Shown: in pieces, positions 21,667 through 63,490 of the stretch
Numbering within the stretch: position 1 is the stretch's first letter
Layout: every line of letters starts with the position of its first letter
From: Chrysopilus asiliformis
Lineage: Eukaryota; Arthropoda; Insecta; Diptera; Rhagionidae
DNA: 64,000 bases
Assembly: GCA_964034945.1 (NCBI GenBank)
Contig: OZ035960.1
Span: 74,870,585 to 74,934,584 of the forward strand
Direction: 5' to 3'
Made by a program: the position numbers and the translations under genes
Notes under the pieces: model-generated
Told to the model about the DNA's origin: nothing
Seen by the model: the letters and a program-made list of their open reading frames with translations, nothing else
The model's database searches: none

Positions 21667-23399
21667 CCTCATCATCCTGGGTTAATTTACAAACAAAAAC
21701 ACCTGGGATGAGTCCCGCGGACTCATATAAAATTTATATATAAAACACTAAATTTAACAGTATTAGAATATTTATTTTTTCACATATTATAAAAAAATTA
21801 TTTATTAACGCAGTTTTTACATATTACTATTTTATGTGAATGTTCGACGCACACATTTTTTTGGGATTCACCGCATATTTGCCGATTCATTCGACCCAGT
21901 GCTATAGGACAAATGTAGCATCTACGCTTCGTTATATTTGTTAGAGGTTTTGATGGTCCTGCATTCTGCTGTTCTTCTGAACCGTAGTGTTTTAACACAA
22001 TCTCTACCACCCCCGCTGTGGATTTTGAAAGGCGAGCAATATTGCGTCGTCGGATGTTCGGTGCAACCAAACCTTCAACTATTTCTCGAAGAAAAATTTT
22101 TCGCCTATCATGCTGATGCGATGCGTTCCGGTTGGGATAAATATTAAGCCAAACAACCTGAGCCGCTATTCCACAAACGTCAATTATATTATAGAATTGG
22201 GCCATTGGCCATCTGTTGGTTTTGCGTTTCGATGAAAATGCATGACACATTTGGTCCAGAGTATCCACTCCTCCTTTTGTAGCATTATAATACAGATTTA
22301 TTGATGACTTGTTTTTATTTTCTGCATCAATTGAATTATCGTGGTGCATTGTAGATAATAAAATTACAGCTCGGTTTTTCTTTGGCACATACATAGCTGA
22401 CTAATGTTTACGAGCAGTTCAACAAGTTTATCAGTTATGAAGAGTGAAAAAGCATCGATCGGAAATTCAACCTGCGTTCCCGGTGACAGTTTCACCTTAT
22501 TGACACCACCTCTAATAATGTTATGTGAGGCCGTTCGTCCAGATGTAAACGGACATGATTTCGATTTGGTGCCATCCTTTCCGGTAATATCAGATTCTGG
22601 TTCCGCGCTCTCTTCACTTTCGAACGCTGATATCTCTTGTTCGTCGGTTACGTCCGAATCAATTTCAAAATTATCTTCCTCATTATCAGATAAATCACTT
22701 TGATTATCTTCCAAAACACTATCCTGATTATTTTCTTCATCACTTTCCTCCAGCGCCATTCGAATTTCTTCTTCTGTAATTGGCCGTTGTCGAGATATCG
22801 TTCTATAAAAAGCACGAGAAAGGTATTTTTTGGTTTTCTTCGTAAAATCAGTTCTTACCTTGCATAAATTGTTTAACTGTTTTGTACCGAATTTGTGTAC
22901 TTTTCACTTGGCTAGAATATTTTATATATCTAAAATATGCAAATACAACTTCCTCAAACAAACTGTTTTTACACTAAATGTCCGTTATTATCACCCAGTG
23001 CATGCACTGGCAATATACACTTATGAGTTTTTATGCACAGGTCAGTGCATTGGGTGCACGCACAAACATAAACTTTATACGCGTAAACCCTGATCGCGTG
23101 TTTTTAACGCACTAAATGCACTGAACGGGTGAATTTTTGTAAATGTGTATGATTTGCGCGGCAAATTTCATACTGAGTCTTTGGGACTCATCAGAGGCTG
23201 TTAAGTTCGTTTTTTGTAAATGATCCTGTGAAAGCTATGGTTGTTGAGTAAAAAAAATATTTTGTTTTTTTTTTTGGAAAAGAAATATATTATATTAGAA
23301 TACATATAGCTCTGCGTATTTAAAAAAAAATGTTTTTTGCCATTTATAAGAAAGCAAAGTTGAAATGTGTCTCAAAGACTCATCCTGGGAGGATGAGCG
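21667..23399 (-). mobile_element. Internally deleted piggyBac element
   Basis: Flanked by TTAA at 21663-21666 and 23400-23403. Outer ends are imperfect complements. Both contain subterminal gggatgag/ctcatcctggg and gactcat motifs. The interior carries the minus-strand transposase remnant at 21798-22759. The 1.73 kb length against the usual 2.4-3 kb fits a central deletion. Confidence 0.82.
21798..22759 (-). pseudogene. piggyBac transposase, deleted and frameshifted
   Basis: The N-terminal part (22759 down to about 22400) is an acidic leader (MALEESDEENNQDSVLEDN...) followed by GGVNKVKLSPGTQV. The C-terminal part (22394-21798) has NATKGGVDTLDQM, containing the third catalytic Asp, then KRKTNRWPMAQFYNIID. 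It ends in a Cys-rich zinc domain (CYICP, CGESQKNVCVEH, CKNC). The middle of the protein with the first two catalytic Asp residues is missing and the two parts are out of frame near 22390. The element cannot transpose by itself. Confidence 0.88.
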
Positions 23400-23680
23400 T
23401 TAATACTACATTTTTTATATCATTTTCACATCATGCAATCTGAATGGCATAGAAATCAATCTACAGAGATCCATAATGTATTTATTTATTTATTTATTTT
23501 AATTAATGTTAGTTTACAAAAAACTATCAAGATTTTGTTTTTTGAACACTGGCTGCAGGGCCTTCGGTTCGACATGATTTTTGTTTTGTTTTGTAGCCTT
23601 ATAATAAGGTGTAATATCTATATTAGTAATTTCTAATTATAAAATACATTTTTTTTTATATTTTAATTATAGTGATTTCC

Positions 23681-26600
23681 TTAAATTTGATTAAAGTATT
23701 TTGTGTTTTTCAAAAAGTTAATTATTTTAATTGAATTTTCATAAGATGGTTCTGTGAGTAGTGATGAGAGAGATGTGTGTCCAATTTGTTTTTTTAATTG
23801 ATCATATTTGCTGCATTCATCTAGTAGGTGGATTATTGTTAGTGGCGTGTTGCAATTGTCGCAAATAGGGCTGGGTTTCTCGGAATTTATTATATGTTGG
23901 TGTGTCAATTTTGTGTGTCCTAAACGAAGTCTAATAATTTTACAACATTCTTTCCTTGGCAATTTCGTGGGAAAATGGGGTGGGAGTAGATTAGGATTGT
24001 AGGCATTGAAATAGTTATTGCTTGAATTCACTGTCCGTAGGTGTCTTGATTCCTGTATCTGTCTTTTTAGTTTGTGGTGGATATCATTGGGGGCAAATGT
24101 GTGCTGTTTGATAATTGGTGCATGTGTTGCTTCTTTTGCAATTTTATCAGCAAAAGTATTACCTTTTATATCTGCGTGACCTGGGATCCACATGATTTTG
24201 ATTTTATTTGGGTGGGCGCATAGGGTGTCCCTTATTTTTAGTATGGTAACCCATTGGTTTTTGTGGTTTGATATTGCATTAATCCCAGCAAGACTGTCAG
24301 AACATATGCAATATTTACCTTTAGTTTTTGAGGCATAGTTTACTGCAAAGTTAATAGCTTCAACCTCGGCATAGAATACCGATGAATCATCAAATAGCGA
24401 GTGTGTACCAATAATTGATTGATCACTTTTAACAACGGCATATGCAATTTCATTCTTATATTTTGATCCGTCAGTGTATATGAAATTCCACTTTTGTTTA
24501 GTTAGGTCTTGGTATATGTACTTAAATAGTGTGTTGTATGTTATATTGTTCGTGTCCTCCTTTTTTAATTGACTTAGTGAGGTATCAATGTTTCTCTGAT
24601 CAAATTTCCAAAAGGGGTGTTTTTTGCTGTATTTTTTTGAATCTCTCCATGAAATATTTAGATTTTCCGCGAGTGAGATGATTTTTGTGATAGCAGATGG
24701 GATTTTTGGGCTTTTTTTTCTGTTTTTGATGTTGTGGTAATCTTTGGATATGGGGGAATTGGAAGAATTTATTATTTTTAGGATGAGTTTGCCTGTGGAT
24801 ATTGTTATTAACTCTTCGATAGTGTATAGTCCGGATTCGATGATCATGTTCAGTATTGGTGTTGTTCTAAAAGCTCCCAGAGCACTCCGAATCGCTGCGT
24901 GGTAAGGACTTTTAATTGGTGTAATGGAGGTAGATGGGCAACGTCCAAATATTGGCAATCCATAGTTTAATTTAGATACAATAATACTTTTGATTACATT
25001 TATAATTGAGTTGGTGTGAGCAAAACTTTTGAAGCTAGCTATACATTTGATTATGTTTAGTCTTTGAAATAAAGAGGCTCTTAATTTTATAATGTGATCT
25101 TTCCAATTAAATCTACTATTAAATATAATTCCTAAGATATTTAAGTGATTGACATTCGTGATATCTAATGAGTTTAAATTAATATTTTTTAGATCGCAAT
25201 TGTGTTTTCTACATATATGCATGTGTTTGCATTTTGTTGGAGAGATTTTTGCTCCAGTTTTAGTGGACCATACTTTTATATTTCGAATTATTTCATCTAT
25301 GTGCTCTATTGTTTCGTGATATGATTTTGGTTTCAAAATTATGTAGAGATCATCAGCATACATTACAAAATCTATTTTTTTGTCTTTTGATAATAGGTTA
25401 CAAAGTTTGTTATAGGCAATTAGGAATAGTACACCTGAAAGGGGTGATCCTTGTGGAATACCGTTCACCGCTTTATATGTGTTTGATAAAGTGTTATTTA
25501 CTTTTACGCAAAACCGCCGGTTTATGAGATAATTCGAGATATAATTTAAGATCTTTGGCCCTACCTTCCATTGTTTTAATTCTTCTATTATAGCGTGAGC
25601 ACCAATCATATCAAACGCTTTCTCAAAATCTATTGCTAATATTGATAGGTGATTTTTGGTGGATAGAGAGTTTGCTACGTAGTGGTCTATGTGGATGAGG
25701 GTGTCTTGGGTACCTTTTCCAATTCTGTATGCAGTTTGGTTACTATTGAATAGGTTTTGAGATTCGGCGTACCAGGCAATTCTGGTTGCTATTATTTTTT
25801 CCATTACTTTGCTTAGGCAAGGGAGTAACGAAATAGGTCTGTAGCTACTTATGTTGAGATTATTTTTGCCAGGCTTTAGGATTGGAATTATGTTAGCGGT
25901 TTTCCACTGAGGAGGAATATGTCCTCTAGAGAAGATTAGATTATATAGGGATAGGAGTCGTGATTTGGCTTGAGTTGAGAGATTCTTAATCATTGGATAT
26001 GAGATTCGGTCTTGTCCTGGCGTGCAGCCTTTTAAGTTAGTTAGTGCATGCTCTAGTTCAAGATAGGATATAGAAGATTCTATTGCTTTTGCAGAAGAGT
26101 GGATTTGATTAGGGGTTGAGTCAATAGTGTGTTTGAGGGTGAGAAATTCTTGGCTGTGATTGATGTCTGAATAATTGTATGAGATCTGTTTGGCAAATTC
26201 ATTACTTATTTGTTTGCAGTCAGAAATTATGTTATCTTCAAGAACAATTTTTTCGATATTTTGATTTTTGGAATTGCCTTTGAGTGCACGTATATTTTTC
26301 CAAACTGTACTAATAGGGATTCTTGGATTTATTTGGTTTGTAAATCTTTGAAAGCTCTCCTTTTTTGCTTGTGTGGCGGTTCGCTTAAATAGTGCATTTG
26401 CTTTTTTGTATGCAATTAAGTTGGAAATGGATGGGTGCTTTTTGAAGTATTTCCATTTAGACTCTTTGTCAGTAATCAACTGTTGTAGTTCTTTGTTCCA
26501 CCAGCAATTGTGTTTTGTTTTTTTTGGTGTATTGAAGGTTCTAGGTATTGAGTTGTTGGCGCAAGTAATTATTGATTTAGTGATTCGGGCTGTTTCTTGG

Positions 26601-27376
26601 TTTATATTATTAAGTTTTTGGGTTTGTGAGAAGGTTTCATCTATTAAGGCAGTAAATTTATTCCAATTGGCATGAGTTAGGTTGAATTTTGGTCGACTTT
26701 TTGGAGTTGGTTGATAAGTTGCGTTTGATATGAGGGTTGTTTTACACGGGAAGTGATCGCTGCCATAGAGATTATCTATTGTTTTCCACTGAGCAATTGG
26801 ACCAAGTATTGACGAGCATAGACTTAAGTCGATATTGGTGAAGCTGTTAAAAGTGGATAAATGAGTAGGAGAGTTATCGTTAAGCAGAATTATATTAGAA
26901 GATAGGATTAGATTTTCTATTTCTTTTCCTTTACTGTTAGTATTTGAACTCCCCCATAGGGGGCTCCATGCGTTGAAATCGCCGACTATTAGGAAAGGAG
27001 ATTGTATTTGGTTAATGATCTGTTGCATTGATTGTGTTGAGATTGTTTCTTGTGGATGTAAGTAAATTGAGACGATGGATAAAGGAAAGTCAAGTTGGGC
27101 TTTTACACCCACTACAAGGTGTTGTGAAGTTATATTCAAACCTTGATAGGGAATGTTTTCTTTTATCAAAATGGCTATACCATTTTTTTTTGCTGTGTTA
27201 CTTGGCAAGTTTTTAAAAATACCGGTATAGCCACGAGGTAGGTGTGGGTTATTTAAGTATGGGCAGTGTGTTTCTTGGAGTGCGATTATGTCTGGACTTT
27301 CTGAGTTGATTAATAAGTTTAGGTTAATATAGTTATTATAATAACCTTTAAGATTCCATTGTAAAATCTTCTTCAT
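23681..27376 (-). CDS. LINE ORF2, endonuclease-reverse transcriptase-RNase H (1231 aa)
   Basis: Domains in order: an EEP endonuclease from the N-terminus (LQWNLKGYYNN, ALQETHC, VGDFNAWSPLWGS at about 130, and SDHFP). The reverse transcriptase follows (LAIDFEKAFD, GIPQGSPLSGVLF and catalytic YADD at about 671-676). RNase H follows (TDGSK at about 966, then FYAEVEA, CSDSLAG, WIPGHAD at about 1061). The C-terminal CCHC-like segment is LRLGHTKLTHQHI...CDNCNTPLTIIHLLDEC. All catalytic residues I looked for are present and no stop interrupts the frame. EN-RT-RNase H order plus a knuckle-bearing ORF1 places it in the I superfamily. It performs target-primed reverse transcription of its own RNA. Confidence 0.95.
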   Translation of the reverse strand: MKKILQWNLKGYYNNYINLNLLINSESPDIIALQETHCPYLNNPHLPRGYTGIFKNLPSNTAKKNGIAILIKENIPYQGLNITSQHLVVGVKAQLDFPLSIVSIYLHPQETISTQSMQQIINQIQSPFLIVGDFNAWSPLWGSSNTNSKGKEIENLILSSNIILLNDNSPTHLSTFNSFTNIDLSLCSSILGPIAQWKTIDNLYGSDHFPCKTTLISNATYQPTPKSRPKFNLTHANWNKFTALIDETFSQTQKLNNINQETARITKSIITCANNSIPRTFNTPKKTKHNCWWNKELQQLITDKESKWKYFKKHPSISNLIAYKKANALFKRTATQAKKESFQRFTNQINPRIPISTVWKNIRALKGNSKNQNIEKIVLEDNIISDCKQISNEFAKQISYNYSDINHSQEFLTLKHTIDSTPNQIHSSAKAIESSISYLELEHALTNLKGCTPGQDRISYPMIKNLSTQAKSRLLSLYNLIFSRGHIPPQWKTANIIPILKPGKNNLNISSYRPISLLPCLSKVMEKIIATRIAWYAESQNLFNSNQTAYRIGKGTQDTLIHIDHYVANSLSTKNHLSILAIDFEKAFDMIGAHAIIEELKQWKVGPKILNYISNYLINRRFCVKVNNTLSNTYKAVNGIPQGSPLSGVLFLIAYNKLCNLLSKDKKIDFVMYADDLYIILKPKSYHETIEHIDEIIRNIKVWSTKTGAKISPTKCKHMHICRKHNCDLKNINLNSLDITNVNHLNILGIIFNSRFNWKDHIIKLRASLFQRLNIIKCIASFKSFAHTNSIINVIKSIIVSKLNYGLPIFGRCPSTSITPIKSPYHAAIRSALGAFRTTPILNMIIESGLYTIEELITISTGKLILKIINSSNSPISKDYHNIKNRKKSPKIPSAITKIISLAENLNISWRDSKKYSKKHPFWKFDQRNIDTSLSQLKKEDTNNITYNTLFKYIYQDLTKQKWNFIYTDGSKYKNEIAYAVVKSDQSIIGTHSLFDDSSVFYAEVEAINFAVNYASKTKGKYCICSDSLAGINAISNHKNQWVTILKIRDTLCAHPNKIKIMWIPGHADIKGNTFADKIAKEATHAPIIKQHTFAPNDIHHKLKRQIQESRHLRTVNSSNNYFNAYNPNLLPPHFPTKLPRKECCKIIRLRLGHTKLTHQHIINSEKPSPICDNCNTPLTIIHLLDECSKYDQLKKQIGHTSLSSLLTEPSYENSIKIINFLKNTKYFNQI

Positions 27377-28625
27377 TTTGGGGGTTAGTTTGGGGTGTGT
27401 TGATATCTTGTATATTTTTAAAATTGGTTTGGTTGTTTTGTTGTGAGATATTTTGATGAGAGTTGGTGGGTTTATTTATTGACTGATCTGTTTTTTCATT
27501 GTTTACTGGGTTTGGATGGGTGTTTATTGTTTTAGTTGCAGGCAATTTTGCTGTGGGGTTGTTTTCTGATTGGTTTGGTATTTCGTTTGATTTGTTGAGT
27601 TCTATTGGAGTCGAGTGATTGCTTAATCTTCTGTTGCGAGCAATTATTGCAGTTTCAAGAGATTCTACAATAGGAGTAGTGTTGAATTCGTTATAACTCG
27701 GGTTGTTTTTTATATAATCGATAGTTTGATGGTATGACCATTTGTTAGTGATTTTGATTTCGTTTATTCTTTGTTTTTTTAAAAGAGAGGGGCACTCTTT
27801 GTGCAAGGCATTGTGGGGATCCTTGCAATTGATACACTGAATTTTAGAACATGGTTGAGGATTGTGAGTGGGAGAAGAGCAAACTTCGCAGAGTTCTACG
27901 CTACGACAATTTTTCTTGGTGTGACCGAATTTAAAGCAATTTTTGCATTGTAATGGTTTGGGAATGTATTGTTTAACCGCTACATTCACGAATCCTATTT
28001 TAATTTCTTTTGGGATTTTGAACGCTCTAAATGATAGAATGTGTAATCCTGTGTTTACAGTTTTTCCATCTATAAATTTAGTTATTTTTTGGCATGCAGT
28101 GACGTTTTGGTCGTTAAGACCTTGCACAATTTCACTTTCTTGTAGATTTCTTAATAGGTGTGAATATACTATACCTTTGCTTGTATTAAGAGTTGGGTGG
28201 AGAGTCACTTCGATTTCACATAAATTTGCTAATTGTTTTACTTTTAGGAAGCGAGTTGCTTGAAGTTGATTTTTAGTTAAGATCAGAATGTCTCCTTCTT
28301 TCGTGAAAGAGATATTCTTTGCATCTTGTGAAATTCCTTCCAAAGCTTTTGCTAATAAGAATATATTGTAGTTTTGAAGTGTTTTATTGGGGTCTTTACT
28401 TTTAATGAGGATAAATTTGGGGCAATCTTTGTGGACTGATGTTATTGGTTGGTTATCATTTTTTTGTAAAGATGGGAATAGGGAGAAATTATTAAGGTCT
28501 AAATTGTGTCTGTTGTTTGTTTTTTTTTTGGCAGGTGGACTGTTTTGATCATGGTTGTTAGATCCTAGAATTTGGTAATAGTTTCGGCGGCCGGAGCCGC
28601 CTGAATTTTCACCCATTTTTAACAC
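27348..28625 (-). CDS. LINE ORF1, Gag-like nucleic-acid-binding protein (425 aa)
   Basis: ORF1 of the I-clade element. A Gly/Ser-rich N-terminus (MGENSGGSGRRN) is followed by a Gag-like region with GLNDQNVTACQKI. Three zinc knuckles lie at about residues 225-275: CKNCFKFGHTKKNC, CEVCSSPTHNPQPC and CINCKDPHNALHKEC. The tail is Asn/Thr/Gln-rich. Such proteins coat element RNA and carry it to the nucleus. The ORF starts with Met at 28616-28625 (MLKMGEN; either Met is possible). It ends inside the start of ORF2. Confidence 0.92.
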   Translation of the reverse strand: MLKMGENSGGSGRRNYYQILGSNNHDQNSPPAKKKTNNRHNLDLNNFSLFPSLQKNDNQPITSVHKDCPKFILIKSKDPNKTLQNYNIFLLAKALEGISQDAKNISFTKEGDILILTKNQLQATRFLKVKQLANLCEIEVTLHPTLNTSKGIVYSHLLRNLQESEIVQGLNDQNVTACQKITKFIDGKTVNTGLHILSFRAFKIPKEIKIGFVNVAVKQYIPKPLQCKNCFKFGHTKKNCRSVELCEVCSSPTHNPQPCSKIQCINCKDPHNALHKECPSLLKKQRINEIKITNKWSYHQTIDYIKNNPSYNEFNTTPIVESLETAIIARNRRLSNHSTPIELNKSNEIPNQSENNPTAKLPATKTINTHPNPVNNEKTDQSINKPTNSHQNISQQNNQTNFKNIQDINTPQTNPQNEEDFTMES

Positions 28626-28789
28626 ACACTAATAAACTATTCTAGAGAGCCTTTTGTTTGTGTGAAACTATATCACTAAAACTACACTGGAAAGTATTAC
28701 TGTGAATTAGAATTTAAACTGTGAACTAGAGCAAGCACTAAATAGACCTATCTCAACGAGTGATTGATTGGTACTGCCATAATGTATTT

Positions 28790-30117
28790 TTTACACATAA
28801 TTTCCATGTTGGACGCTTTTCATAATTTCAGAAAAAATGAAATTACGAAAAATAACCAAATTTGATGTTTGTTAGTGCTGTGAGATGAAGAGACCGTGAC
28901 AAATCTCTTAAATTGTTAAAGTCGCAATTCACCAAAACCCGAGGAACAAATTTATATTAAAATTTCAAAGTAAAAATTAACAGACTTTTATTATCTAGTA
29001 ATATTTTATTATCTAGAATTAGGGAGTGAATTACGTTTTCTCATTTATCCAGCTTGGTTGTGAAGTTTTAACGCCGAATCAGATAAATCAAATAGTTTGT
29101 TTTATAAAATATCTCGCCGGTACATGTTTTTTTTACAGACGAGGGCAGCAGATATAGTGTTCTATGAAAACTGAAATGAACAAGTTTTCCCATGAAAAGT
29201 GTGCGGTTCCGATTCTGTTTCTGTTTAAAAAACTTATAAACACTGTCAAAGTAATCTTATTTTTACACTAGACTTGTTTTTTGTATTGTTCTGAAGGTAT
29301 GCAGAACAACATTTTTCACACAAGCCGTTGACCGGTTGCAGGGTTCAACATTTTAAAACACAAGTTTTGTAATCTTATACACTTTCAAAATGCACTAAAA
29401 AGTGCACAAGTTTTCTCACCAATGTTTTAGTGTTTGAAAAGAAAAATGTTGTTAACGATCGAAAAGCGCCTCTGAAGGGACATTTCGTTATTTCAAATAA
29501 ATAAACACTGCTTTCAAGTGTATACAGTTATGATTACTAATGTTTATATTGGCCCCAATCACAGAAAACGCCGTACGCAAAGTGAGTGCGTTTCTCTCGT
29601 TTTTCGATCATTGAAAACGTTCGAAGGGAGTTGTGAGTCATTCACGTTTGACGTTTCAAATACGCGCCACTTTCATTGCGTATCTGAGTGAGGGACAAAA
29701 GGCAAAAATGTAAGTTTAAAGAATTTAATTGAATAATTAGTACATTTTTAACTTATTATTATAGGAAAAGAACAACAAACCTATCTTTTTTAGCTGTCAA
29801 AATTAGCAAAGACACAAAAAAAAACTTAACGAAAGTTTCATTAAACGCCGTATTCAATGATACGGCGTAAAGTGAAAGTGAATCGAATGGGTGAAGTGAA
29901 TCTCAGATACGCCGTATTCCATGATCGGCACCATTATATTGTTTATATATTCATCAGCTCACATAGTGCGTTTCTATTTATCCTTAAAACAATAAATATA
30001 AATTTTACGCAATAATAAAAATCAGCTTAGTATTCGTTTGCACATCGTACCGTTAAGTTTAGTTAAATCAATTAGATTACTAGTTTTCAATTTTCGTTCT
30101 ATTCGAAAATTGAAAAC
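28790..30117. other. Intronic sequence, one degenerate MITE
   Basis: No ORF. At about 29552-29931 the ends ggccccaatcacagaaaacg and gtattccatgatcggcacc are imperfect complements around acgccgta motifs. Related gaatacgccg strings occur in the element at 32391-33242. The rest is AT-rich. Confidence 0.4.
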
Positions 30118-30936
30118 CATCACTCGATAAGGTCGATCATATCGTGACTCATCAGTCATAAACTGTTCATTGCCAGTGAGGGTTAAGCACAGAGACCGAA
30201 TTTTAGCTGGTAAACGAACTTTTTATGGTTTCCAATATTTTGATTTCTGTCTTAGTTTTTTATATTATTGAATATAACTTTATCGATAATGTAAGTCAAT
30301 GAAGCTATAATTAATAATGTCCTTTTGTTTTATTACAATCCTTAACTATATCTTTGGTATGATTAACAATTCAAAAAAAGTAATGTCGGGGCTAAAATTA
30401 ACAAACCCTTGCCCCATGTTAATACATACTGACGATGACAACATAGAGTAAGAATTCTCATACTATGTTTTTATAGATACAAATTATGTACAAAAAAACT
30501 GCACTGAAACCTTTTTTTAGATAAAAATAATTGTTTTTGTTTTTTAAAACGACTTAATTTTTTTAGTCAATTTATGTTCCTTGAAAAGGATATTTATTTG
30601 GTTCATTTTATTAGTTTTTGTGATAAATAATATATTTGAATTTAAAGGGATATTTATTTTGTTGATTTAATAATTTTTGTGATTTTTTTTTCTTTTAATT
30701 ATTTCCATGTTAAAACTTATGTTAATACTAACCCCATCGTTGTTAAAACTAGCCCCATGATCGGGGTTAGTTTTTTTTTCATATAGTGACTACCTGGTTG
30801 AAACTTTTTTTTAATTTCTTATGATACATGAATAACTACAGTATGGCTAGATATAAAGACAATATCAAAAATGTTACTTGTTAAAAAAATATGACCCAAT
30901 CTTCAAAATTTGTTAATACTAGACCCGGTCTCCCCC
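30118..30936. mobile_element. Truncated second copy of the 6591-10074 element
   Basis: Begins cactcgataaggtcgatcat and ends with ttaatactagacccggtctc. It aligns with 6685-7130, 7960-8162 and 9910-10070, and lacks the left terminus. It lacks the 8171-9879 hAT insertion, with ggggttag followed directly by a T-run and catatagtgac, and lacks the 7131-7960 block. Confidence 0.8.
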
Positions 30937-31174
30937 ATTATAGAATATTTTGATAAAAATTGTGTGGCATTTGCTTTTTGAACTTAGCACTCAAACTTTT
31001 TTTTATTCACACAGCTACTTTAATATCAGTAAACCACAATGGCGGAGTAGTTTCACACAGTTCCAATGTCACACAGTTTATGTTTTAATCAATATATACC
31101 TACACTTTTAAATAGCATTTCTCTTGAAAACTTAAAACATTGATGGGAAAACTTGTTTTGTATTTTTTAGTGTA

Positions 31175-31787
31175 TAATACTATGTTCACACCGACGCAAA
31201 ATTACGTAATTTTGAAGATTTTCGTAATTTTGAACGAAATCACGTTCGAAATCACGAGATTTCCAGTACAAAAGCCTGTTTTCAAAATCACTAAAAGTAT
31301 GTAATTTCCACAAAATTAGGAATGAAATCAAGCAAAAACAATGGTTACAACCCTGCATCACTTATTCAGCTCTCTTCAGCACATCAGTTTTGACGTGCTG
31401 CATTGGAAAAATGGAAATATAAGAAAAAGAAGCCGTGTTCCGCACGCGAAGAGGATATATTAGTAAACAACCTACGTGGGCCAAAAAAATGGACCTGTTT
31501 TTGATGCGATTAGATATGAAATGGAAAATAATTGTTTATTTTCATTACATATAATTTCCATTTTCTTCTAAAGTGTCTAATTCTGTTTGCACATATTTCA
31601 TCGATGTTTTGAATTATATTATTCATCATATTACTAAAGTTCATAGCAATCCTACACTAAAATTCATACCAATCCTGTAGTTGAAATGTCAAGCAAATTT
31701 ACCTTAACCTCTGTGTGAACACTTTGGTTTAAGATCTAAATCATTTCGCAAAATTACGTGATTTTGCGTCAGTGTGAACTTAGTATT
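31175..31787. mobile_element. MITE with AATACTATGTTCAC ends, copy A
   Basis: Ends aatactatgttcacaccgac and gtcagtgtgaacttagtatt are complements with a few mismatches, followed by gcaaaattacgtaatttt inside both ends. The copy at 60525-61171 is very similar along its length. No transposase frame. Confidence 0.78.
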
Positions 31788-32390
31788 AGATTAGAAAACT
31801 AGTTTCTTAAATTGTTTTTTACTTGGTTCTTTTTAGTCTTCGAATTTATATGTATCTTTGCCTTTGAAATATCCTTACGCACTTTTTGACTTCAAAATCG
31901 GATTCAGCGACCCCAAATACTTACATCTTTACGTTACAGGCGAAAAAGTCCTAAATATTGGGTAAATATCCTTCTAAAGCTTTTGCCATCGTTTTGCTTG
32001 TAAAAATTATTTAATTTCACGACTTCTTGCCATGTGAATTTAGATTCCACCATCTTAAATTCGGAAATATAAAAAAAATCACTGGTTTTCAGTTATGAAA
32101 TCTGTCATTTTTTGTCCACGAATTCGAGCTCTGGTTGGACAATAAAAAAATCACAAGATAAAAAATCGCAAGGGGGAAGGCCTGGTAGGAGAGATATGGT
32201 AAATCCGTTTTTTCAAAGGATTTTTTTGCATTTAGAACTCTATGGAAATCAATTATGTAAACTTTCAATTCGAGTAGTTAAATATAATTGACGCGGATTT
32301 GTAAAACTTATTTCAACTGAAGTTAGGAAATACATCCCCTTTAAAAAAAAAACAAAAGTGAACCGTTTTTCCCCGACGGAACGGAGATAG
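31788..32390. other. No gene; diverged repeat fragment
   Basis: 31960-32170 (from ttctaaagcttttgccatcg, including gaatttagattccaccatct and cgaattcgagctctggttgg) is a diverged relative of the repeat at 4675-4870 and 5817-6010. Nothing else is recognised. Confidence 0.4.
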
Positions 32391-33242
32391 TCACCTCTAT
32401 TCTTGAATACGGCGTTACGTTTATTTGCTCGATTAGTGTTCGATCGTGAGCAATCGGTATTCTTGAATACGCAGTATCTATCAACGTTCGATTTGGAATA
32501 ACGCATTGCAACGCATTCGATTTTTGTTATTCTTGAATACGCCGGGAGCACTTTTTTGAGGTTAAATCACTCACTTCAAATTTCTCGCGTTTCATTGGCG
32601 TTTGAATTGAGTGTTTACAAAAATGTAAGGTAAATCTATTATAAGTTTAAATCAAAGATTTTAACAGTGATTTCTTAAAATAGGAGTGCAAAGAAAAACA
32701 CTACAAACACAGACTAGTTTGCATTTTTAATTTCAAAAATGAAAAACAATCCGGACATTGCCAAGGGATATACGAGGAAGTCGCCGATAGAGATGAATTT
32801 ATTGCGCGAGGAAATTCAATGTATTCGAAAGCAGTCTTGTTCAACCGGAAATATTTTTTGAATCTACAAAATTACAAATAAAAATCTATGAGATTCCCAG
32901 TATTTGTATGCACTTTCGCTTCATCGGTTAAGCTCATCAAATCTGAAGAGTGTCTTAGAAATTTTTTCGCTAGCGTAACGAATTCAGCTCCTCTTGCCTC
33001 AATAAATGATACATCAGTGTAGAATCCATGGCTACTGAAGCAAATCACTTCAAACACTTCACTTTTATTGAAAATTAAGAACAAACAATCAAATCAGCTG
33101 ATGTTTGACAGCGCGTTGCCATGCAATACTTTATATACCAAACGCGAAGCTCCCGGCGTTTTCCAGAATACCAATTGCGTAGCGAATCGAATCGAACGCG
33201 TTACGATTTTGATCCTAACGCCGTTTTCAAGAATAGAGGTGA
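32391..33242 (+). mobile_element. PIF/Harbinger-like element with Myb/SANT-like remnant
   Basis: Ends tcacctctattcttgaatac and gttttcaagaatagaggtga pair well. At 32739 the + strand reads MKNNPDIAKGYTRKSPIEMN, which resembles the start of the Myb/SANT-like DNA-binding protein encoded by Harbinger elements (NPDIAKG motif). The rest of the domain is lost. A clear TSD is not seen. Extra copies of attcttgaatacg occur near the left end. Confidence 0.55.
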
Positions 33243-33269
33243 TAATATGCGTTTGGTTTGGAGTTTGTG

Positions 33270-33600
33270 CTTCCTTCCCTCATAAATTTTGAACTACTCA
33301 ACCGATTTCGGTCTCGTTTTTGGCATTCGGCTGGATATGGGTGTCGCAAGGTTCTTGGGTTTAAAAATTCCCCCTCCCCCCCAAAATAAACCCCCTCTCT
33401 TTGTATCTTCTGATCCACTGAACCGATTCCGATCCCGGTTTCGGTATTCCGTTGTAAATAATGAAAGGAATATTTTAGTGTGTAAGAATTCAGTCTCCCC
33501 TTAACGTTACCTCTCCTCTCCCTGTGTATTTTGATTCCCTGAACCGTTTTCGATCCCGCTTCGGCATTCGAGGGACATTATTTGGAAAAAATTGATAATC
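33270..33600. repeat. Three degenerate direct repeats, about 120-bp period
   Basis: Related strings recur: ctcaaccgatttcggtctcg, then ctgaaccgattccgatcccg, then ctgaaccgttttcgatcccg. Each is followed by a ggcattcg/ggtattccg variant. A C-rich segment (cccctcccccccaaaat) lies between the first and second. Not coding. Confidence 0.5.
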
Positions 33601-34621
33601 TAAAGATAATTATTACAAAACAAAATGGTTACCAAAAAACTTTAAATTCAATCGTTTGTTCACTGTTATCTTTAAAAAGAGTGAAAAAAAGAACAAATAA
33701 AAATTTTGAAAACCCCCTGACTAAAGAAAAACCCTAAAAAATTGAAAAACTGAATAAAAAAAATCCTTTAAAAAGGATAAAATAATCATTACTTTGTGTG
33801 CGTCGGGAAAGCCTATTGGTCGTTGAATTTGTGTGGATTTGGACTATAATCTAGGGAATAAACAATGGGACGTGTAAGAAAGGCCGCCGAGCTGAAAAAT
33901 CGGTAAGAAGAGCTTTAAAAATTTAATCCTTTGCCACAAATAATTAGTAAAATAACTGAAATCGGTCAATCTCATATCAAAATTTGGAAAGTTGTAATTG
34001 TTGACACGCCATCATGTGTATAATATAGAGCAGTGCTCCGCAACCTTTATTTGCAGACGGCACACCAATTTTTTTTCTGGAAATTCGGGGCACGCCACAA
34101 AAGAAAATATAAAAAAATTTGTGTATAAAATATTTATAATGAAAAAATTAACAAAAAAATCCTGAAAGAATTATTAAATAGCTATTTGAAATGTTTACCG
34201 CGGCACACCTAATATCATTTCCCGGCACACCAGTGTGCCGCGGAGTGGACATCCGGACTTGTACCAATGGCCGCCGAGCTAAATGTCGTTCTTTGTCACA
34301 TTATCAAAATAACGGAAATCGCTTAATATAAGTAAAAAAACTCATGTCTAGTCGCTCTAGTCCGGATGTCCACTCTCTATATTATGGGCTCTATACACAC
34401 ATACTGGTGTCATAACGCCGACATTGACGCCTCATCTGTTTGGGGCATAACTTTCGAGATATTTAAATTCAACCCTAAATAATAATAAAAATCCTTTAAA
34501 AAGGATAAAATAATATAATCATTGGAGTAAATTTAAAATTGGTTTGCATCAGGACAACCTTGCTCCACAAATTCAACGACCAATAGGCTTTCCCGACGCA
34601 CACAAAGAACCATGCAGGATT

Positions 34622-36736
34622 TGGCGTTTTTTATGCCCCCGGGTTAACTTTTGAACCAGTTCGGGTTTCACTTTCGTATTACCCCCATTGGAAAGGTAAT
34701 TTGCTCTAGTTTCATGGACATAAGCTCTTTTTTGGCGGGGAACTGCAGGGGGATGGTCAGCTGCCATCTTAGGCGCAATGATTTTTTCATGCATTTTTCG
34801 ACGATTTTTATGCCCCCGGGCTAACGTTTGAACCAGTTCGGGTTTCACTTTCGTATTACCCCCATTGGAAAGGTAATTTGCTCTAGTTTCATGGACATAA
34901 GCTCTTTTTTGGCGGGGAACTGCAGGGGGATGGTCAGCTGCCATCTTAGGCGCACTGCTTTTTTCATGCATTTTTCGACGATTTTTATGCCCCCGGGCTA
35001 ACTTTTGAACCAGTTCGGGTTTCACTTTCGTATTACCCCCATTGGAAAGGTAATTTGCTCTAGTTTCATGGACATAAGCTCTTTTTTGGCGGGGAACTGC
35101 AGGGGGATGGTCAGCTGCCATCTTAGGCGCACTGCTTTTTTCATGCATTTTTCGACGATTTTTATGCCCCCGGGCTAACTTTTGAACCAGTTCGGGTTTC
35201 ACTTTCGTATTACCCCCATTGGAAAGGTAATTTGCTCTAGTTTCATGGACATAAGCTCTTTTTTGGCGGGGAACTGCAGGGGGATGGTCAGCTGCCATCT
35301 TAGGCGCAATGATTTTTTCATGCATTTTTCGACGATTTTTATGCCCCCGGGCTAACGTTTGAACCAGTTCGGGTTTCACTTTCGTATTACCCCCATTGGA
35401 AAGGTAATTTGCTCTAGTTTCATGGACATAAGCTCTTTTTTGGCGGGGAACTGCAGGGGGATGGTCAGCTGCCATCTTAGGCGCAATGATTTTTTCATGC
35501 ATTTTTCGACGATTTTTATGCCCCCGGGCTAACGTTTGAACCAGTTCGGGTTTCACTTTCGTATTACCCCCATTGGAAAGGTAATTTGCTCTAGTTTCAT
35601 GGACATAAGCTCTTTTTTGGCGGGGAACTGCAGGGGGATGGTCAGCTGCCATCTTAGGCGCACTGCTTTTTTCATGCATTTTTCGACGATTTTTATGCCC
35701 CCGGGCTAACTTTTGAACCAGTTCGGGTTTCACTTTCGTATTACCCCCATTGGAAAGGTAATTTGCTCTAGTTTCATGGACATAAGCTCTTTTTTGGCGG
35801 GGAACTGCAGGGGGATGGTCAGCTGCCATCTTAGGCGCAATGATTTTTTCATGCATTTTTCGACGATTTTTATGCCCCCGGGCTAACTTTTGAACCAGTT
35901 CGGGTTTCACTTTCGTATTACCCCCATTGGAAAGGTAATTTGCTCTAGTTTCATGGACATAAGCTCTTTTTTGGCGGGGAACTGCAGGGGGATGGTCAGC
36001 TGCCATCTTAGGCGCAATGATTTTTTCATGCATTTTTCGACGATTTTTATGCCCCCGGGCTAACGTTTGAACCAGTTCGGGTTTCACTTTCGTATTACCC
36101 CCATTGGAAAGGTAATTTGCTCTAGTTTCATGGACATAAGCTCTTTTTTGGCGGGGAACTGCAGGGGGATGGTCAGCTGCCATCTTAGGCGCACTGCTTT
36201 TTTCATGCATTTTTCGACGATTTTTATGCCCCCGGGCTAACTTTTGAACCAGTTCGGGTTTCACTTTCGTATTACCCCCATTGGAAAGGTAATTTGCTCT
36301 AGTTTCATGGACATAAGCTCTTTTTTGGCGGGGAACTGCAGGGGGATGGTCAGCTGCCATCTTAGGCGCACTGCTTTTTTCATGCATTTTTCGACGATTT
36401 TTATGCCCCCGGGCTAACTTTTGAACCAGTTCGGGTTTCACTTTCGTATTACCCCCATTGGAAAGGTAATTTGCTCTAGTTTCATGGACATAAGCTCTTT
36501 TTTGGCGGGGAACTGCAGGGGGATGGTCAGCTGCCATCTTAGGCGCACTGCTTTTTTCATGCATTTTTCGACGATTTTTATGCCCCCGGGCTAACTTTTG
36601 AACCAGTTCGGGTTTCACTTTCGTATTACCCCCATTGGAAAGGTAATTTGCTCTAGTTTCATGGACATAAGCTCTTTTTTGGCGGGGAACTGCAGGGGGA
36701 TGGTCAGCTGCCATCTTAGGCGTAATGATTTTTCCA
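34622..36736 (-). repeat. 177-bp tandem array, left arm (about 12 units)
   Basis: Twelve head-to-tail units read outward on the minus strand. Units differ only at a few positions: AAG/ACG (Lys/Thr), AGCAGT/ATCATT (Ser-Ser/Ile-Ile) and gcc/acc. A 713-codon frame stays open from 36714 to 34573 because the unit length is a multiple of three. The outer end runs into a segment (34566-34606) that is an inverted copy of 33797-33838. Confidence 0.93.
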
Positions 36737-39700
36737 TGAAAAAATCATTGCGCCTAAGATGGCAGCTGACCATCCCCCTGCAGTTCCCCGCCAAAAAAGA
36801 GCTTATGTCCATGAAACTAGAGCAAATTACCTTTCCAATGGGGGTAATACGAAAGTGAAACCCGAACTGGTTCAAAAGTTAGCCCGGGGGCATAAAAATC
36901 GTCGAAAAATGCATGAAAAAAGCAGTGCGCCTAAGATGGCAGCTGACCATCCCCCTGCAGTTCCCCGCCAAAAAAGAGCTTATGTCCATGAAACTAGAGC
37001 AAATTACCTTTCCAATGGGGGTAATACGAAAGTGAAACCCGAACTGGTTCAAACGTTAGCCCGGGGGCATAAAAATCGTCGAAAAATGCATGAAAAAATC
37101 ATTGCGCCTAAGATGGCAGCTGACCATCCCCCTGCAGTTCCCCGCCAAAAAAGAGCTTATGTCCATGAAACTAGAGCAAATTACCTTTCCAATGGGGGTA
37201 ATACGAAAGTGAAACCCGAACTGGTTCAAACGTTAGCCCGGGGGCATAAAAATCGTCGAAAAATGCATGAAAAAATCATTGCGCCTAAGATGGCAGCTGA
37301 CCATCCCCCTGCAGTTCCCCGCCAAAAAAGAGCTTATGTCCATGAAACTAGAGCAAATTACCTTTCCAATGGGGGTAATACGAAAGTGAAACCCGAACTG
37401 GTTCAAACGTTAGCCCGGGGGCATAAAAATCGTCGAAAAATGCATGAAAAAATCATTGCGCCTAAGATGGCAGCTGACCATCCCCCTGCAGTTCCCCGCC
37501 AAAAAAGAGCTTATGTCCATGAAACTAGAGCAAATTACCTTTCCAATGGGGGTAATACGAAAGTGAAACCCGAACTGGTTCAAAAGTTAGCCCGGGGGCA
37601 TAAAAATCGTCGAAAAATGCATGAAAAAAGCAGTGCGCCTAAGATGGCAGCTGACCATCCCCCTGCAGTTCCCCGCCAAAAAAGAGCTTATGTCCATGAA
37701 ACTAGAGCAAATTACCTTTCCAATGGGGGTAATACGAAAGTGAAACCCGAACTGGTTCAAACGTTAGCCCGGGGGCATAAAAATCGTCGAAAAATGCATG
37801 AAAAAATCATTGCGCCTAAGATGGCAGCTGACCATCCCCCTGCAGTTCCCCGCCAAAAAAGAGCTTATGTCCATGAAACTAGAGCAAATTACCTTTCCAA
37901 TGGGGGTAATACGAAAGTGAAACCCGAACTGGTTCAAACGTTAGCCCGGGGGCATAAAAATCGTCGAAAAATGCATGAAAAAATCATTGCGCCTAAGATG
38001 GCAGCTGACCATCCCCCTGCAGTTCCCCGCCAAAAAAGAGCTTATGTCCATGAAACTAGAGCAAATTACCTTTCCAATGGGGGTAATACGAAAGTGAAAC
38101 CCGAACTGGTTCAAACGTTAGCCCGGGGGCATAAAAATCGTCGAAAAATGCATGAAAAAATCATTGCGCCTAAGATGGCAGCTGACCATCCCCCTGCAGT
38201 TCCCCGCCAAAAAAGAGCTTATGTCCATGAAACTAGAGCAAATTACCTTTCCAATGGGGGTAATACGAAAGTGAAACCCGAACTGGTTCAAACGTTAGCC
38301 CGGGGGCATAAAAATCGTCGAAAAATGCATGAAAAAAGCAGTGCGCCTAAGATGGCAGCTGACCATCCCCCTGCAGTTCCCCGCCAAAAAAGAGCTTATG
38401 TCCATGAAACTAGAGCAAATTACCTTTCCAATGGGGGTAATACGAAAGTGAAACCCGAACTGGTTCAAACGTTAGCCCGGGGGCATAAAAATCGTCGAAA
38501 AATGCATGAAAAAATCATTGCGCCTAAGATGGCAGCTGACCATCCCCCTGCAGTTCCCCGCCAAAAAAGAGCTTATGTCCATGAAACTAGAGCAAATTAC
38601 CTTTCCAATGGGGGTAATACGAAAGTGAAACCCGAACTGGTTCAAACGTTAGCCCGGGGGCATAAAAATCGTCGAAAAATGCATGAAAAAATCATTGCGC
38701 CTAAGATGGCAGCTGACCATCCCCCTGCAGTTCCCCGCCAAAAAAGAGCTTATGTCCATGAAACTAGAGCAAATTACCTTTCCAATGGGGGTAATACGAA
38801 AGTGAAACCCGAACTGGTTCAAAAGTTAACCCGGGGGCATAAAAATCGTCGAAAAATGCATGAAAAAAGCAGTGCGCCTAAGATGGCAGCTGACCATCCC
38901 CCTGCAGTTCCCCGCCAAAAAAGAGCTTATGTCCATGAAACTAGAGCAAATTACCTTTCCAATGGGGGTAATACGAAAGTGAAACCCGAACTGGTTCAAA
39001 CGTTAGCCCGGGGGCATAAAAATCGTCGAAAAATGCATGAAAAAATCATTGCGCCTAAGATGGCAGCTGACCATCCCCCTGCAGTTCCCCGCCAAAAAAG
39101 AGCTTATGTCCATGAAACTAGAGCAAATTACCTTTCCAATGGGGGTAATACGAAAGTGAAACCCGAACTGGTTCAAACGTTAGCCCGGGGGCATAAAAAT
39201 CGTCGAAAAATGCATGAAAAAATCATTGCGCCTAAGATGGCAGCTGACCATCCCCCTGCAGTTCCCCGCCAAAAAAGAGCTTATGTCCATGAAACTAGAG
39301 CAAATTACCTTTCCAATGGGGGTAATACGAAAGTGAAACCCGAACTGGTTCAAACGTTAGCCCGGGGGCATAAAAATCGTCGAAAAATGCATGAAAAAAT
39401 CATTGCGCCTAAGATGGCAGCTGACCATCCCCCTGCAGTTCCCCGCCAAAAAAGAGCTTATGTCCATGAAACTAGAGCAAATTACCTTTCCAATGGGGGT
39501 AATACGAAAGTGAAACCCGAACTGGTTCAAAAGTTAACCCGGGGGCATAAAAATCGTCGAAAAATGCATGAAAAAAGCAGTGCGCCTAAGATGGCAGCTG
39601 ACCATCCCCCTGCAGTTCCCCGCCAAAAAAGAGCTTATGTCCATGAAACTAGAGCAAATTACCTTTCCAATGGGGGTAATACGAAAGTGAAACCCGAACT

Positions 39701-40405
39701 GGTTCAAACGTTAGCCCGGGGGCATAAAAATCGTCGAAAAATGCATGAAAAAATCATTGCGCCTAAGATGGCAGCTGACCATCCCCCTGCAGTTCCCCGC
39801 CAAAAAAGAGCTTATGTCCATGAAACTAGAGCAAATTACCTTTCCAATGGGGGTAATACGAAAGTGAAACCCGAACTGGTTCAAACGTTAGCCCGGGGGC
39901 ATAAAAATCGTCGAAAAATGCATGAAAAAATCATTGCGCCTAAGATGGCAGCTGACCATCCCCCTGCAGTTCCCCGCCAAAAAAGAGATTATATCCATGA
40001 AACTAGAGCAAATTACCTTTCCAATGGGGGTAATACGAAAGTGAAACCCGAACTGGTTCAAAAGTTAACCCGGGGGCATAAAAATCGTCGAAAAATGCAT
40101 GAAAAAATCATTGCGCCTAAGATGGCAGCTGACCATCCCCCTGCAGTTCCCCGCCAAAAAAGAGCTTATGTCCATGAAACTAGAGCAAATTACCTTTCCA
40201 ATGGGGGTAATACGAAAGTGAAACCCGAACTGGTTCAAAAGTTAACCCGGGGGCATAAAAATCGTCGAAAAATGCATGAAAAAAGCAGTGCGCCTAAGAT
40301 GGCAGCTGACCATCCCCCTGCAGTTCCCCGCCAAAAAAGAGCTTATGTCCATGAAACTAGAGCAAATTACCTTTCCAATGGGGGTAATACGAAAGTGAAA
40401 CCCAA
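36737..40405 (+). repeat. 177-bp tandem array, right arm (about 20.7 units)
   Basis: Mirror image of the left arm, meeting it with no spacer at a dyad between 36736 and 36737 (mismatches only at 734/739 and 723/750 near the centre). Unit variants recur roughly every fourth unit (Lys + Ser-Ser, then three Thr + Ile-Ile units), a higher-order pattern. The 59-residue period starts MAADHPPAVPRQKRAYVHE and includes KNRRKMHEK. The frame 36759-40412 has 1217 codons. One unit has two changes (DYIHE). The last unit ends early at KVKPKS. Confidence 0.93.
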
Positions 40406-40695
40406 AAGTTAGTAAAGGGGCATTTTCGTGCATCGTTCTTTTAAATTTACTGTAATGCTTATTTTATCCTTTTTAAAGGATTTTTTTTTATTCAGGAGTT
40501 TTTCAATTTTTTAGGCTTTTTCTTTCGGGGGTTTTTCATTTTTTTTTTAAAAAACCACAATCGTCTGTATGATATGGGAATAATAGTCTGTATTTTTTAA
40601 ACAAGGTTTAATTTTATTTTATCACGAAAAAATTAAGTTTGTTTTACAGAAAACATGTTTTAAAAGAGCAGTTAAAACAATTTTGTTTATTTCAG

Positions 40696-41583
40696 ATATG
40701 GCCAAATGATATCATCATCGTTAATTGAATTTTGTCGACAGTATATGCAAAGCATAACAATAAATACAACTTCTTGGTTTTCATCTCTTTCGAACATAGT
40801 TGGTAATATGTTTGTTTCAGACGAAGGATGTGAAAGAACTCAACAAATTAAAGCACATAATGCGTTGTTATTGGCACTGTATGAGGCTGTACATTTAAAT
40901 CGGAATTTTATTACCACCTTATCTCATACTCAGGCTGAGACTAGTGCTCCGCCATCTCCTAGTAATACACTTAATACCAATCAACCATTGCCAGATTTTA
41001 CTTCAGTTCCGGCCATCGATATTCCACAATATCCAACAAATCTATTAGTCGCAGTTTTCCAATATTGGTGGAAATTTGTTTTTCATTATTTTTCTATTTA
41101 ACTGTTATTTTTTATAATTCTAGCTCTATTGTAATGCAGGATAACAAATCTGAATCTAGCGCAGCAAATCTAAAGCTCTGTTTTATTATATTAACATGTA
41201 TTTCGGAAGATCAATATGCGAACTCTATGATGCATGATTCTAATTTAACGTTTAAAGTATTGCTTTATCGAGCTCAAATGCGACACAGGAAATTGGGAAT
41301 AGACCGATGGGGTAAATCCCAACCGTTGGCGACAACTCTAATGGATTTACTTGTGGAGTTTATTGTTTCTCATCTAATGAAAAAATTTCCAGTGGAATTG
41401 TATTTACTTTGCGTTGGAATCATACACCGAATTTTGTGTTATCAAAAAAGATGCCGAGTTCGCCTTAATTATCCATGGAAAGAGTTATGGTCAGCATTGA
41501 TTGGCTTGTTGCGATTTCTTGTTAATCAGGAACAAAACCTAATAAAAAAATGCAATACATTTCATCTATCGCTTCAGGTTAAC

Positions 41584-41626
<43 letters not shown>

Positions 41627-41775
41627 AAACTCATTACATATATTTCAGATTATCAACATATTTAATTTGTTTATTACATATGGGGATACTTTCTTGGCAA
41701 CTACTAACAGTTATGATGAACTTTATTATGAATTAAATAGAGAAGAAAAAGTATTCAGTGAAATTCACGCAATGG
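40696..41775 (+). CDS. ARMH3: ARMH3 homolog, exons 4-6
   Basis: Inferred exons 40696-41067, 41124-41577 and 41649-41775. The exon 4/5 junction rebuilds Cys in LLVAVFQYCSIVMQD across a 56-bp intron. Exon 5 carries ISEDQYANSMMHDSNL and MRHRKLGIDRW, and it includes most of the conserved ARMH3_C (DUF1741) region. The 71-bp intron 5 contains a (TA)n tract at 41585-41622. Exon 6 reads IINIFNLFITYGDTFL and SYDELYYEL, then ends with phase 1 at donor gtaagc. All frames agree and no stop is met. The predicted helical-repeat fold is family knowledge. Confidence 0.94.
41585..41622. repeat. (TA)n microsatellite in ARMH3 intron 5
   Basis: About 19 TA units immediately after the donor of the 71-bp intron 5, so intron length is probably polymorphic. 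Confidence 0.85.
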
Positions 41776-45810: not shown

Positions 45811-47117
45811 TTCTTTTATTTATTGATTCAACAGATACATTAAACCATCTGAATATATAAAGATGAAACAAACAACTAATTATACAATTTTTTTTTCATT
45901 AAAAATTTACTTAAATTGAAGTCACCTATGTTTTGATTTATATTATAAGCTTTACACATGGCAGCCATTGGTTCATATTGACCATAGTTCGTTCTATGAA
46001 AAGGTTCATAAATAAATCGAGAGTTCCGATTGGCACGACAATGAGCATTAATATTGATTGATTCAAGCAGTTGGGGAGATTGAACATTACCAGACAAGAT
46101 ACCCTGAATGAATAATACTCGATGAGTCTCTCTACGTTGAGTAAGGGTAGGCAAATTTATTAGTCTGAGCCTATCTTGATAAGGTGGCAGTATCAACCTG
46201 TCGTCCCAAGAAAGGTTACATAGAGCGAAACGTAGAAAACGCTTCTGAACTGCCTCAATTCTGTTGGAGTGAACTGAATAAAAAGATGACCACACTATGC
46301 AGACATATTCTAGAATAGGACGGATAAAAGAGCAATACAAAATTTTCATGACATAGGGGTCAGTGATTTCACGAGACCATCTTTTTACAAAACCTAACAT
46401 TGCATTCGCACGACTGGTGATTTGGTCAATGTGAAGCTGAAAAGTTAACTTTTCATCAAGGATCACACCAAGATCAGTAACCTTGCTAGATCTAGATAAG
46501 GTCATACAACACGTGTATGTAAAAAAAATAGGTTTGCAGGCGCGAGAATATGTTATTACGGAGCATTTTGGAAAGTTGAGAGTTAGACCATTTTTTGTGC
46601 TCCACTCTGTAAAGATATTCAAATCTGATTTGAGAAGCGATGAATCATGATCGCAGCTAATTATTTTAAATATTTTTAAGTCGTCCGCATATTCTAGAAT
46701 TTGAGTATCTTTGAGAGTCGAGAAGATGTAATTTATGTATAAGTTAACAAGGAGAGGACCCAAATGACTACCCGGAAGTTACGTCAAATTGTTTAGACAA
46801 AACAGTTAAAAATTTAACTTTGAAAGAGCGACCATGCAGGTATGAAGAAATCCACTTAAGGAAGGAGACACAAAATCCGATTCTGCTCAATTTGAAAATC
46901 AATATGTTATGTGGAAGTTTGTCAAATGCTAATATCAGTGTAAATACAGTCAATTTGATTTCCTTTTTCAATTTCTTTAATACAAATGTTTGTAAATTCA
47001 ATTAAGTTGGTGGAAGTGGACTTTCCTTTAATAAAACCGTGCTGGTTTGACGATAATAAAGATTTACATCTAAAAGACACTGAATCACTTACTAGTGATT
47101 CGAAAATTTTGGCAAGT
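45811..47117 (-). pseudogene. Jockey/CR1-like LINE fragment inserted in the LOA relic
   Basis: 5'-truncated minus-strand reverse transcriptase: LAKIFESLVSDS, SSNQHGFIKGKSTSTNLIEF, a broken DISI..AFDKLPHN, GPLLVNLYINYI and catalytic YADDLKIF. The C-terminal part follows (VTDLGVILDEKLTF, SFIRPILEYVCIVWSSF, ending KFLMKKKLYN at 45876) and no RNase H. The 3' tail has AATAAATAAAAG near 45820. There are at least two frame breaks, around 46765 and 46925. Clade assignment beyond the Jockey superfamily is uncertain. No clean TSD. Confidence 0.8.
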
Positions 47118-48736
47118 CCGTGGAGACAGCTATGCACACTCTGGTTCACACAATAGAAAAATCACTGGACCTCAAGGAATACACAATGGTTACCTTTCTA
47201 GATATTGAAGGAGCCTTTAACAATGTCGTACCCGAGGCTTCATAGGAGCATTACAGTATCTTGGAGTAGAGGCTCCTTTAAGCGAACTGATAAATCTAAT
47301 GCTAACAGGCAGGATTATCAACTCAAAGCTGGGGAACTCATCTGCAAGAAAATTTGTAAAAAGAGGAACCCCACAAGGGGGAGTACTCTCCCCACTTCTT
47401 TGGATACTAGCAATTAACGAATTGCTCCAAATCCTGGAAGCGGAGGGCTGCAAAGTGATAGCTTACGCGGACGACGTTGCTATAGCTTTTTCAGGGAAGT
47501 ATCCTACTACCTTGAAAGATCTAACACAGAATGCTCTTTCTAAACTATCTACTTGGATAAACAAATGCGGTTTAGCGGTCAACCCGCATAAAACCGAAAT
47601 AGTCCTCTTCACCAGGAAATACAAAGTTCCTCAAATCGACCTACCTGATAAATGGCACCAGCCTAGTCTGGACAGACAGGGCCAAATACCTGTGTATTAT
47701 TCTGGATAGGAAACTAAACTGGAAACTTAATACTCAGGAAAGGGTTAAAAAAGCCTCAGTGGCCATCCACTCGTGTAAACGAGCCATTGGATCAAAATGG
47801 GGAATAAAACCATACATGGTTCACTGGCTATACACGTCTGTTATCAGACCCATACTTATGTACGGGGTAATCGTTTGGTGGACAGCTTTAGACCAAGCCG
47901 CACACCGAGATTCACTAGGGAAAATACAAAGAATGGCTTCAGTGTGTATAAGCGGAGCACTGAGAACGACTCCTACGAAGGCACTGGAAGCCCTTCTACA
48001 TTTGGTTTCCCTAGACTTTTATGGCAAGCAGATGGCGGCATGTGCAGCTATCAGGGTAAAAGTCTCATTAACATGGTATAATAATACTGAAAAATGACTT
48101 TCCAGTATTCTTAAGAATTTTCAGCTAGTCTCAAGAAATATAGACTACACTATATCCAAACCTTTTTTTGAAAGGAAATTTACCACTATTATCCCTTCCA
48201 GGCAACAATGGGAGGATGGTACTATCCAAAACTGTAACACAGTGCATTTTTACACAGGGGGATCCAAACTGGATGGGAGAGTGGGTAGAGGGATCTACTC
48301 TGGTCATTTAAATATCAGTCAATGTCTCCGCCTACCGGATCACTGTAGTGTATTTCAGGCCGAAATGATGGCAATTAAAGACGTTACCGAGTGGCTCAAA
48401 AATAATGTTGTATCATCTAGAGATATCAGCATCTTTACCGACAGCCAAGCGGCAATAAAATTCCTAGAATCTATCGCACTTACATCAAAGGTGGCACAGG
48501 AGTGTAAGGCGTCTCTAAATGAGATGTCAGAATATTTCAACATCAACATCGTTTGGGTGCCAGGACATAGTGAACGAGAAAGCGGACGAACTTGCTAGGA
48601 GAGGCACAATTGCGCCAGCTCTACCTGTAAAGGAGAGTATAGGCATACCTATGGCAACGTGCAAACTTCTGCTAAGTTCTGAAGCGCTAAACAATGCAAA
48701 CCAGAGATGGACACGGGATAGAACGTGTACCGTCAC

Positions 48737-63285: not shown

Positions 63286-63490
63286 TAACTGACGAGCATA
63301 AAATAATGGTAAAATATGTTGACGATCTGTTGACGAAGATGCGGATTGCCACATGAAATATGTGGGGACCACAAAGCAGTACCTGAAAAATAGGATTGCA
63401 GGGCATAAATCCGATCTAAAAAATAAAGGGGTAAATAAAACGGCGCTCACTGATCATTGCATCGAAAATAATCATGTACCTGACTTTGGG

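Follow-up and report, generated by a model that had tools for sequence, protein, structure and literature searches.

In a 64,000-nt stretch of the genome of the rhagionid fly Chrysopilus asiliformis (contig OZ035960.1, positions 74,870,585 to 74,934,584; hereafter, the window, whose own numbering is used throughout), two tandem arrays of one 177-bp repeat point away from each other (i.e., head to head) and probably form, within an intron of an ARMH3 homologue, a non-autonomous DNA element of the foldback type. Judged from its sequence, the locus is a good structural match to foldback elements, short of proof of membership. Tandem Repeats Finder (period 177) placed the left array at 34628-36738 (11.9 copies) and the right array at 36735-40403 (20.7 copies), with 98% matches and 0% indels. 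The arrays meet in an inverted repeat with zero spacer (34611-36736 / 36737-38862; 2126 nt, 99%), in agreement with an initial annotation that described about 12 units to the left and about 20.7 to the right of a zero-spacer dyad. At zero offset, the 12 whole left units differ from the right arm by 23 mismatches in 2124 bp. The exact central palindrome is CATG alone, the base pairs 3 and 14 out from the centre being mismatched. At the outer ends, divergence affects 6 of the final 13 positions of the outermost left unit, while the final right unit is partial and diverged, with 10 bases missing. The G+C content of the unit is 46%. The parts of the palindrome are as follows.

34611-36738, minus strand: left arm, 12 units of 177 bp
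36735-36738, no strand: dyad, CATG within the unit, common to the first unit of both arms
36735-40406, plus strand: right arm, 20.7 units of 177 bp, with a 4-unit higher-order period

Features that characterize foldback elements are found here. The 2126-nt inverted repeat, together with related terminal segments, provides long inverted terminal arms; the arms contain tandem repeats in unequal number (11.9 versus 20.7 copies); and an outer flanking domain is related in inverted orientation at both ends (local alignment score, 74; maximum in 1000 Markov shuffles, 41). The flanking segments are listed below.

33695-33792, plus strand: outer left terminal segment, inverted match to 40452-40547 (85.3% over 102 columns, E 2.6e-26)
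33792-33833, plus strand: 42-nt segment, perfect inverted copy of 34566-34607
34474-34538, plus strand: inner left terminal segment, which holds ATCCTTTAAAAAGGAT, inverted match to 40439-40496 (81.5% over 65 columns)
34566-34607, minus strand: 42-nt segment adjoining the left array, inverted copy of 33792-33833
40439-40547, minus strand: right terminal segment, inverted match to both left terminal segments

The members of the perfect 42-nt pair lie 732 bp apart. Read from the sequence, the ends of the two arrays can be aligned at the same GCAT of the unit, followed on both sides by GTTCTTT; past GTTC, the left flank has 68 bp without a counterpart in the right flank. Between the left terminal segments (33834-34473), a short stretch near 34030-34245 resembles a miniature inverted-repeat transposable element by eye, a 17-nt perfect inverted pair occurs at 34243-34259 / 34359-34375, and positions 33844-33983 match 2279-2417 in inverted orientation (73%).

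The flanks bear on a rival explanation, namely, that the locus is an ordinary satellite array with an internal inversion or template switch at CATG, that no mobile element is involved, and that the similarity of the flanks stems from an unrelated older repeat. The homogeneous units and the higher-order period would suit a satellite, and 177 bp lies inside the length range of insect satellites (in the excerpted Table 2 for Bactrocera tryoni, there are five satellites of 154-182 bp, one being 177 bp, a comparison by length only; PMC4367827). However, we regard this explanation as unlikely, since an inversion confined to one array would leave unlike outer ends, whereas here the sequences past the two arrays match each other in inverted orientation and an alignment can be made in which both arrays stop at one and the same position of the unit.

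The two arms appear to have had separate histories. The order of unit variants differs between them, as the initial annotation had noted: among 18 offsets tried in the arm-to-arm comparison, the lowest count was 11 mismatches in 1239 bp, and none came near identity. The right arm contains five distinct whole units and the left arm six, with three common to both. In the right arm, a shift of 4 units brings self-mismatch down to 0.39%, while the remaining shifts between 1 and 9, eight in all, give 0.61-1.23%; in higher-order period, the two arms contrast by degree rather than in kind. Because the arms differ in mismatches, variant order, period and distinct units, we propose that they expanded separately. 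The amplification looks recent, since only 8 variable sites were present across the 31 units compared (i.e., 20 right and 11 left units; the outermost left unit, which is diverged, and the incomplete right unit were set aside). Adjoining the dyad, the innermost left unit (36562-36738) has changes of its own at unit positions 5 and 16, both absent from the other 31 whole units.

A plausible course of events would begin with an ancestral palindromic element that had one or a few units per arm. Each arm may then have grown on its own, possibly by unequal exchange or replication slippage, to 12 and about 21 units, and the element would have been inserted into the intron, for which no duplication was found. 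The long open frames would have come along as one unit was copied, since its length is divisible by 3 and one of its frames has no stop; the unit itself may derive from a coding exon.

Several observations weigh against a foldback element. No transposase was linked to it, and it has no middle domain, unlike the foldback element Tetris. The left end is rearranged (two terminal segments and the 42-nt inverted pair, with other repeated DNA between), and its true boundary is therefore uncertain. In the window outside the arrays, the termini had no matches beyond the three segments listed above, and with the arrays masked, no further copies of the unit were detected in the window at E 1e-3. The self-mismatch of the left arm also has its minimum at a 4-unit shift (1.20%; next value, 1.26%; range to 2.64%). 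No target-site duplication, which in foldback elements measures about 7-10 bp, stands out, the best pair of flanking 11-mers agreeing at 10 of 11 positions, a level reached in 68 of 100 shuffles. A CAATCGT(T/C)TGT pair at 33649 and 40558, considered as a target-site duplication, was dropped as being at chance level.

Both arms are open throughout the following frames, whose lengths are those given in the initial annotation.

34573-36714, minus strand: left-arm open frame, 713 codons
36759-40412, plus strand: right-arm open frame, 1217 codons

In the repeat frame, all 32 whole units (20 right and 12 left) are free of stops, and this is a point in favor of a real gene, or a gene pair, for a basic protein of tandem 59-residue repeats. 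We consider such a protein very improbable. A 177-bp unit without a stop in one frame leaves that frame open at any copy number; thus, a long open reading frame (ORF) over a repeat of multiple-of-3 length restates a single observation of 59 codons, and the 713 or 1217 codons here are not independent of one another. As a general caution, such an ORF should be counted as one unit of evidence. Random circular 177-bp units were open in at least one of the six frames at a frequency of 0.49 when drawn from a Markov model of the unit and 0.126 when drawn from one of the window (20000 trials each). Across the dyad, 44 bases separate the start codons of the two frames, each of which holds at most a few non-repeat residues. 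All 8 variable sites are non-synonymous, compared with 387 of 510 random non-stop changes (p about 0.11); the repeat frame thus shows no sign of constraint in what is a weak, small-sample test.

The base periodicity of the open frame is coding-like: a model for which the inferred ARMH3 exons served as training set scored it 3.9. Of 2000 random open units, 0.2% scored at least as high, as did 1.3% of 627 overlapping 177-mers from the window that are open but non-coding. However, the signal depends on the model. When the model was trained on a jockey-type long interspersed nuclear element (LINE), 15% of the 627 non-coding segments matched the score of the unit, and 4.3% did so with both training sets. 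The ARMH3 model fails as a general detector of coding DNA, since 0 of 78 jockey coding segments reached 3.9 under it. The count of RNY (purine-any base-pyrimidine) codons is ordinary (15 of 59; mean of the random best of six frames, 17). The periodicity hints at a coding past for the unit and does not count as evidence of coding by the arrays. Since the open frame scores as coding-like under one of the two models, the unit could be an exon fragment that was captured.

A single-sequence fold of three units predicts two helices per unit (mean predicted local distance difference test [pLDDT] score, 70.7; predicted template modeling [pTM] score, 0.19), a point in favor of a repeat protein. A four-unit protein matched 14 Pfam families up to E 1, and two were above the curated cut-offs (DUF7843, E 5.9e-6; DUF2501, E 1.3e-5). 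These two matches pass the whole-protein cut-off, but 0 stretches pass alone, and one unit in two rotations matched 0 Pfam families up to E 1; we took the matches as sums over copies and dropped membership in either family. The protein database search of the 59-residue period that the initial annotation had called for returned no relative at E 0.01 for the 236-aa and 713-aa repeat queries among the best 7993 word-sharing candidates for each (lengths of about 130-413 aa and 392-1248 aa, respectively). A query with the LINE protein returned 262 matches at E 1e-30, which indicates that insect proteins were covered and does not imply that a relative of 59 residues would be detectable. No solved structure was similar in sequence to the unit at E 1. 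Viral contigs gave 0 exact matches to a 24-base unit pattern and 0 to a 25-base terminus pattern; a back-translated search of the viral contigs matched 5 stretches, none of which was confirmed. The 24-base unit pattern also had 0 matches when prokaryotic genome contigs were scanned once; the genome of the window or those of close relatives may be outside these contig sets. Three peptide words of the unit had no occurrence in the literature searched. The suggestion that the open arms alone point to an undescribed repeat protein was not supported, as random units are often open, no relative at E 0.01 was found among the candidates compared, and a single unit matched no Pfam family.

Fold-back reads are known to yield palindromes without a spacer, but we rejected an assembly or library artefact of this kind as highly unlikely. 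With a folded read, the two sides should agree in variant order and in flank; here the arms differ in length, variant order and flanking DNA, a contrast that appears to support the initial annotation in setting a simple read fold-back aside.

In a transcript that runs through the intron, the arms could pair with each other over about 2.1 kb. It is a long shot that the element took up part of a coding exon, multiplied it head to head, and was transcribed (with the ARMH3 intron or alone) into a kilobase-long hairpin whose small interfering RNAs (siRNAs) would silence the parent gene. Should the unit be a captured exon, the growth of foldback elements would be linked to the birth of hairpin-RNA silencers.

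The gene that surrounds the element was delineated as follows.

21008-40695, plus strand: inferred intron of the ARMH3 homologue that holds the element, with a GT donor, an AG acceptor and one open frame across the exons

The inferred intron is 19.7 kb long, and the inferred exons (20730-21007, 40696-41067 and one from 41124) are joined in one open frame with GT/AG borders. Matches to Pfam PF08427 (ARMH3_C) are located at 41065-41733 (E 2e-32) and 59928-60317 (E 3.1e-22). Exon 20730-21007 would belong to ARMH3 because it shares the open frame; Pfam gave no match above the cut-off for the ORF that covers this exon. Searches of solved structures with pieces of the ARMH3 exons yielded nothing useful (0, 0 and one match at E 0.49). 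The element lies close to the 3' splice site, the right terminal segment ending 148 bp and the right ORF 283 bp before it.

The same intron contains other mobile elements. The jockey-type LINE (23681-28625, minus strand) has a 1231-aa ORF2 with endonuclease, reverse transcriptase and RNase H matches and, upstream of it, a 425-aa ORF with a zinc-knuckle match below the cut-off. The best named relatives of the LINE protein are tephritid fly proteins (~40% identity), the higher-ranking rows being unnamed. A transposase relic (21798-22394, minus strand) matches DDE_Tnp_1_7 (E 1.4e-8), which we take to be of the piggyBac type. Elsewhere in the window, more reverse transcriptase pieces occur in 45876-48598 (RVT_1 matches at 45876-46763 and 47299-47706), and two ORFs at 62321-63450 (minus strand) resemble a Penelope-type element by eye (i.e., a reverse transcriptase tail and a GIY-YIG-like part), with no Pfam match above the cut-off. 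Scans of the window with Rfam (gathering thresholds) and for tRNAs each returned 0 matches.

The initial annotation had also proposed the locus as a candidate for something undescribed. This does not apply to the architecture, since foldback elements with tandem-repeat arms are already in print, as the cited excerpts attest (PMC4079207, PMC3573991, PMC3169594); it may hold for the sequence of the unit itself, for which the searches described above returned no relative or single-unit family. As excerpted, the report on Tm1, a Mutator/Foldback element of Meloidogyne, describes repeats of ~14 bp in variable numbers and one member that holds the gene Cg-1; it differs from the present locus in its repeat length of 13-15 bp and its 9-bp target-site duplications (PMC3169594). 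Galileo, a foldback-like element of the P superfamily, has long inverted arms with internal tandem repeats unequal between arms, as here. In the part of the source consulted, its F group carries ~210-bp repeats in unequal numbers in the two arms of one copy; the differences are that these repeats reach up to three copies and that Galileo has 7-bp target-site duplications and a known transposase gene (PMC3573991). Drosophila hairpin RNA loci (e.g., hp-CG4068) are also inverted repeats, some in tandem multiples, but the cited excerpt has them recognized by primary transcripts and Dicer-2-dependent siRNAs (PMC10317233).

Tetris (TIR-220), a foldback element of Drosophila virilis, offers another comparison. 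According to the excerpts of its description (PMC4079207), it differs in having a middle domain, target-site duplications of 8-10 bp and AT-rich repeats (~70%), whereas here there is no middle domain, no duplication was found and the G+C content of the unit is 46%. It shares with the present element the inverted arms, the outer flanking domain and the variable-number tandem repeats, which are of ~220 bp in Tetris, as well as the lack of a conserved ORF and the growing arrays. The same source describes two Tetris alleles with three and four repeats and arrays of up to 66 copies, and its authors traced long satellite arrays to Tetris (PMC4079207). The C. asiliformis locus is apparently a recent case in which the arms of a mobile element have been turning into head-to-head satellite-like arrays within an intron.
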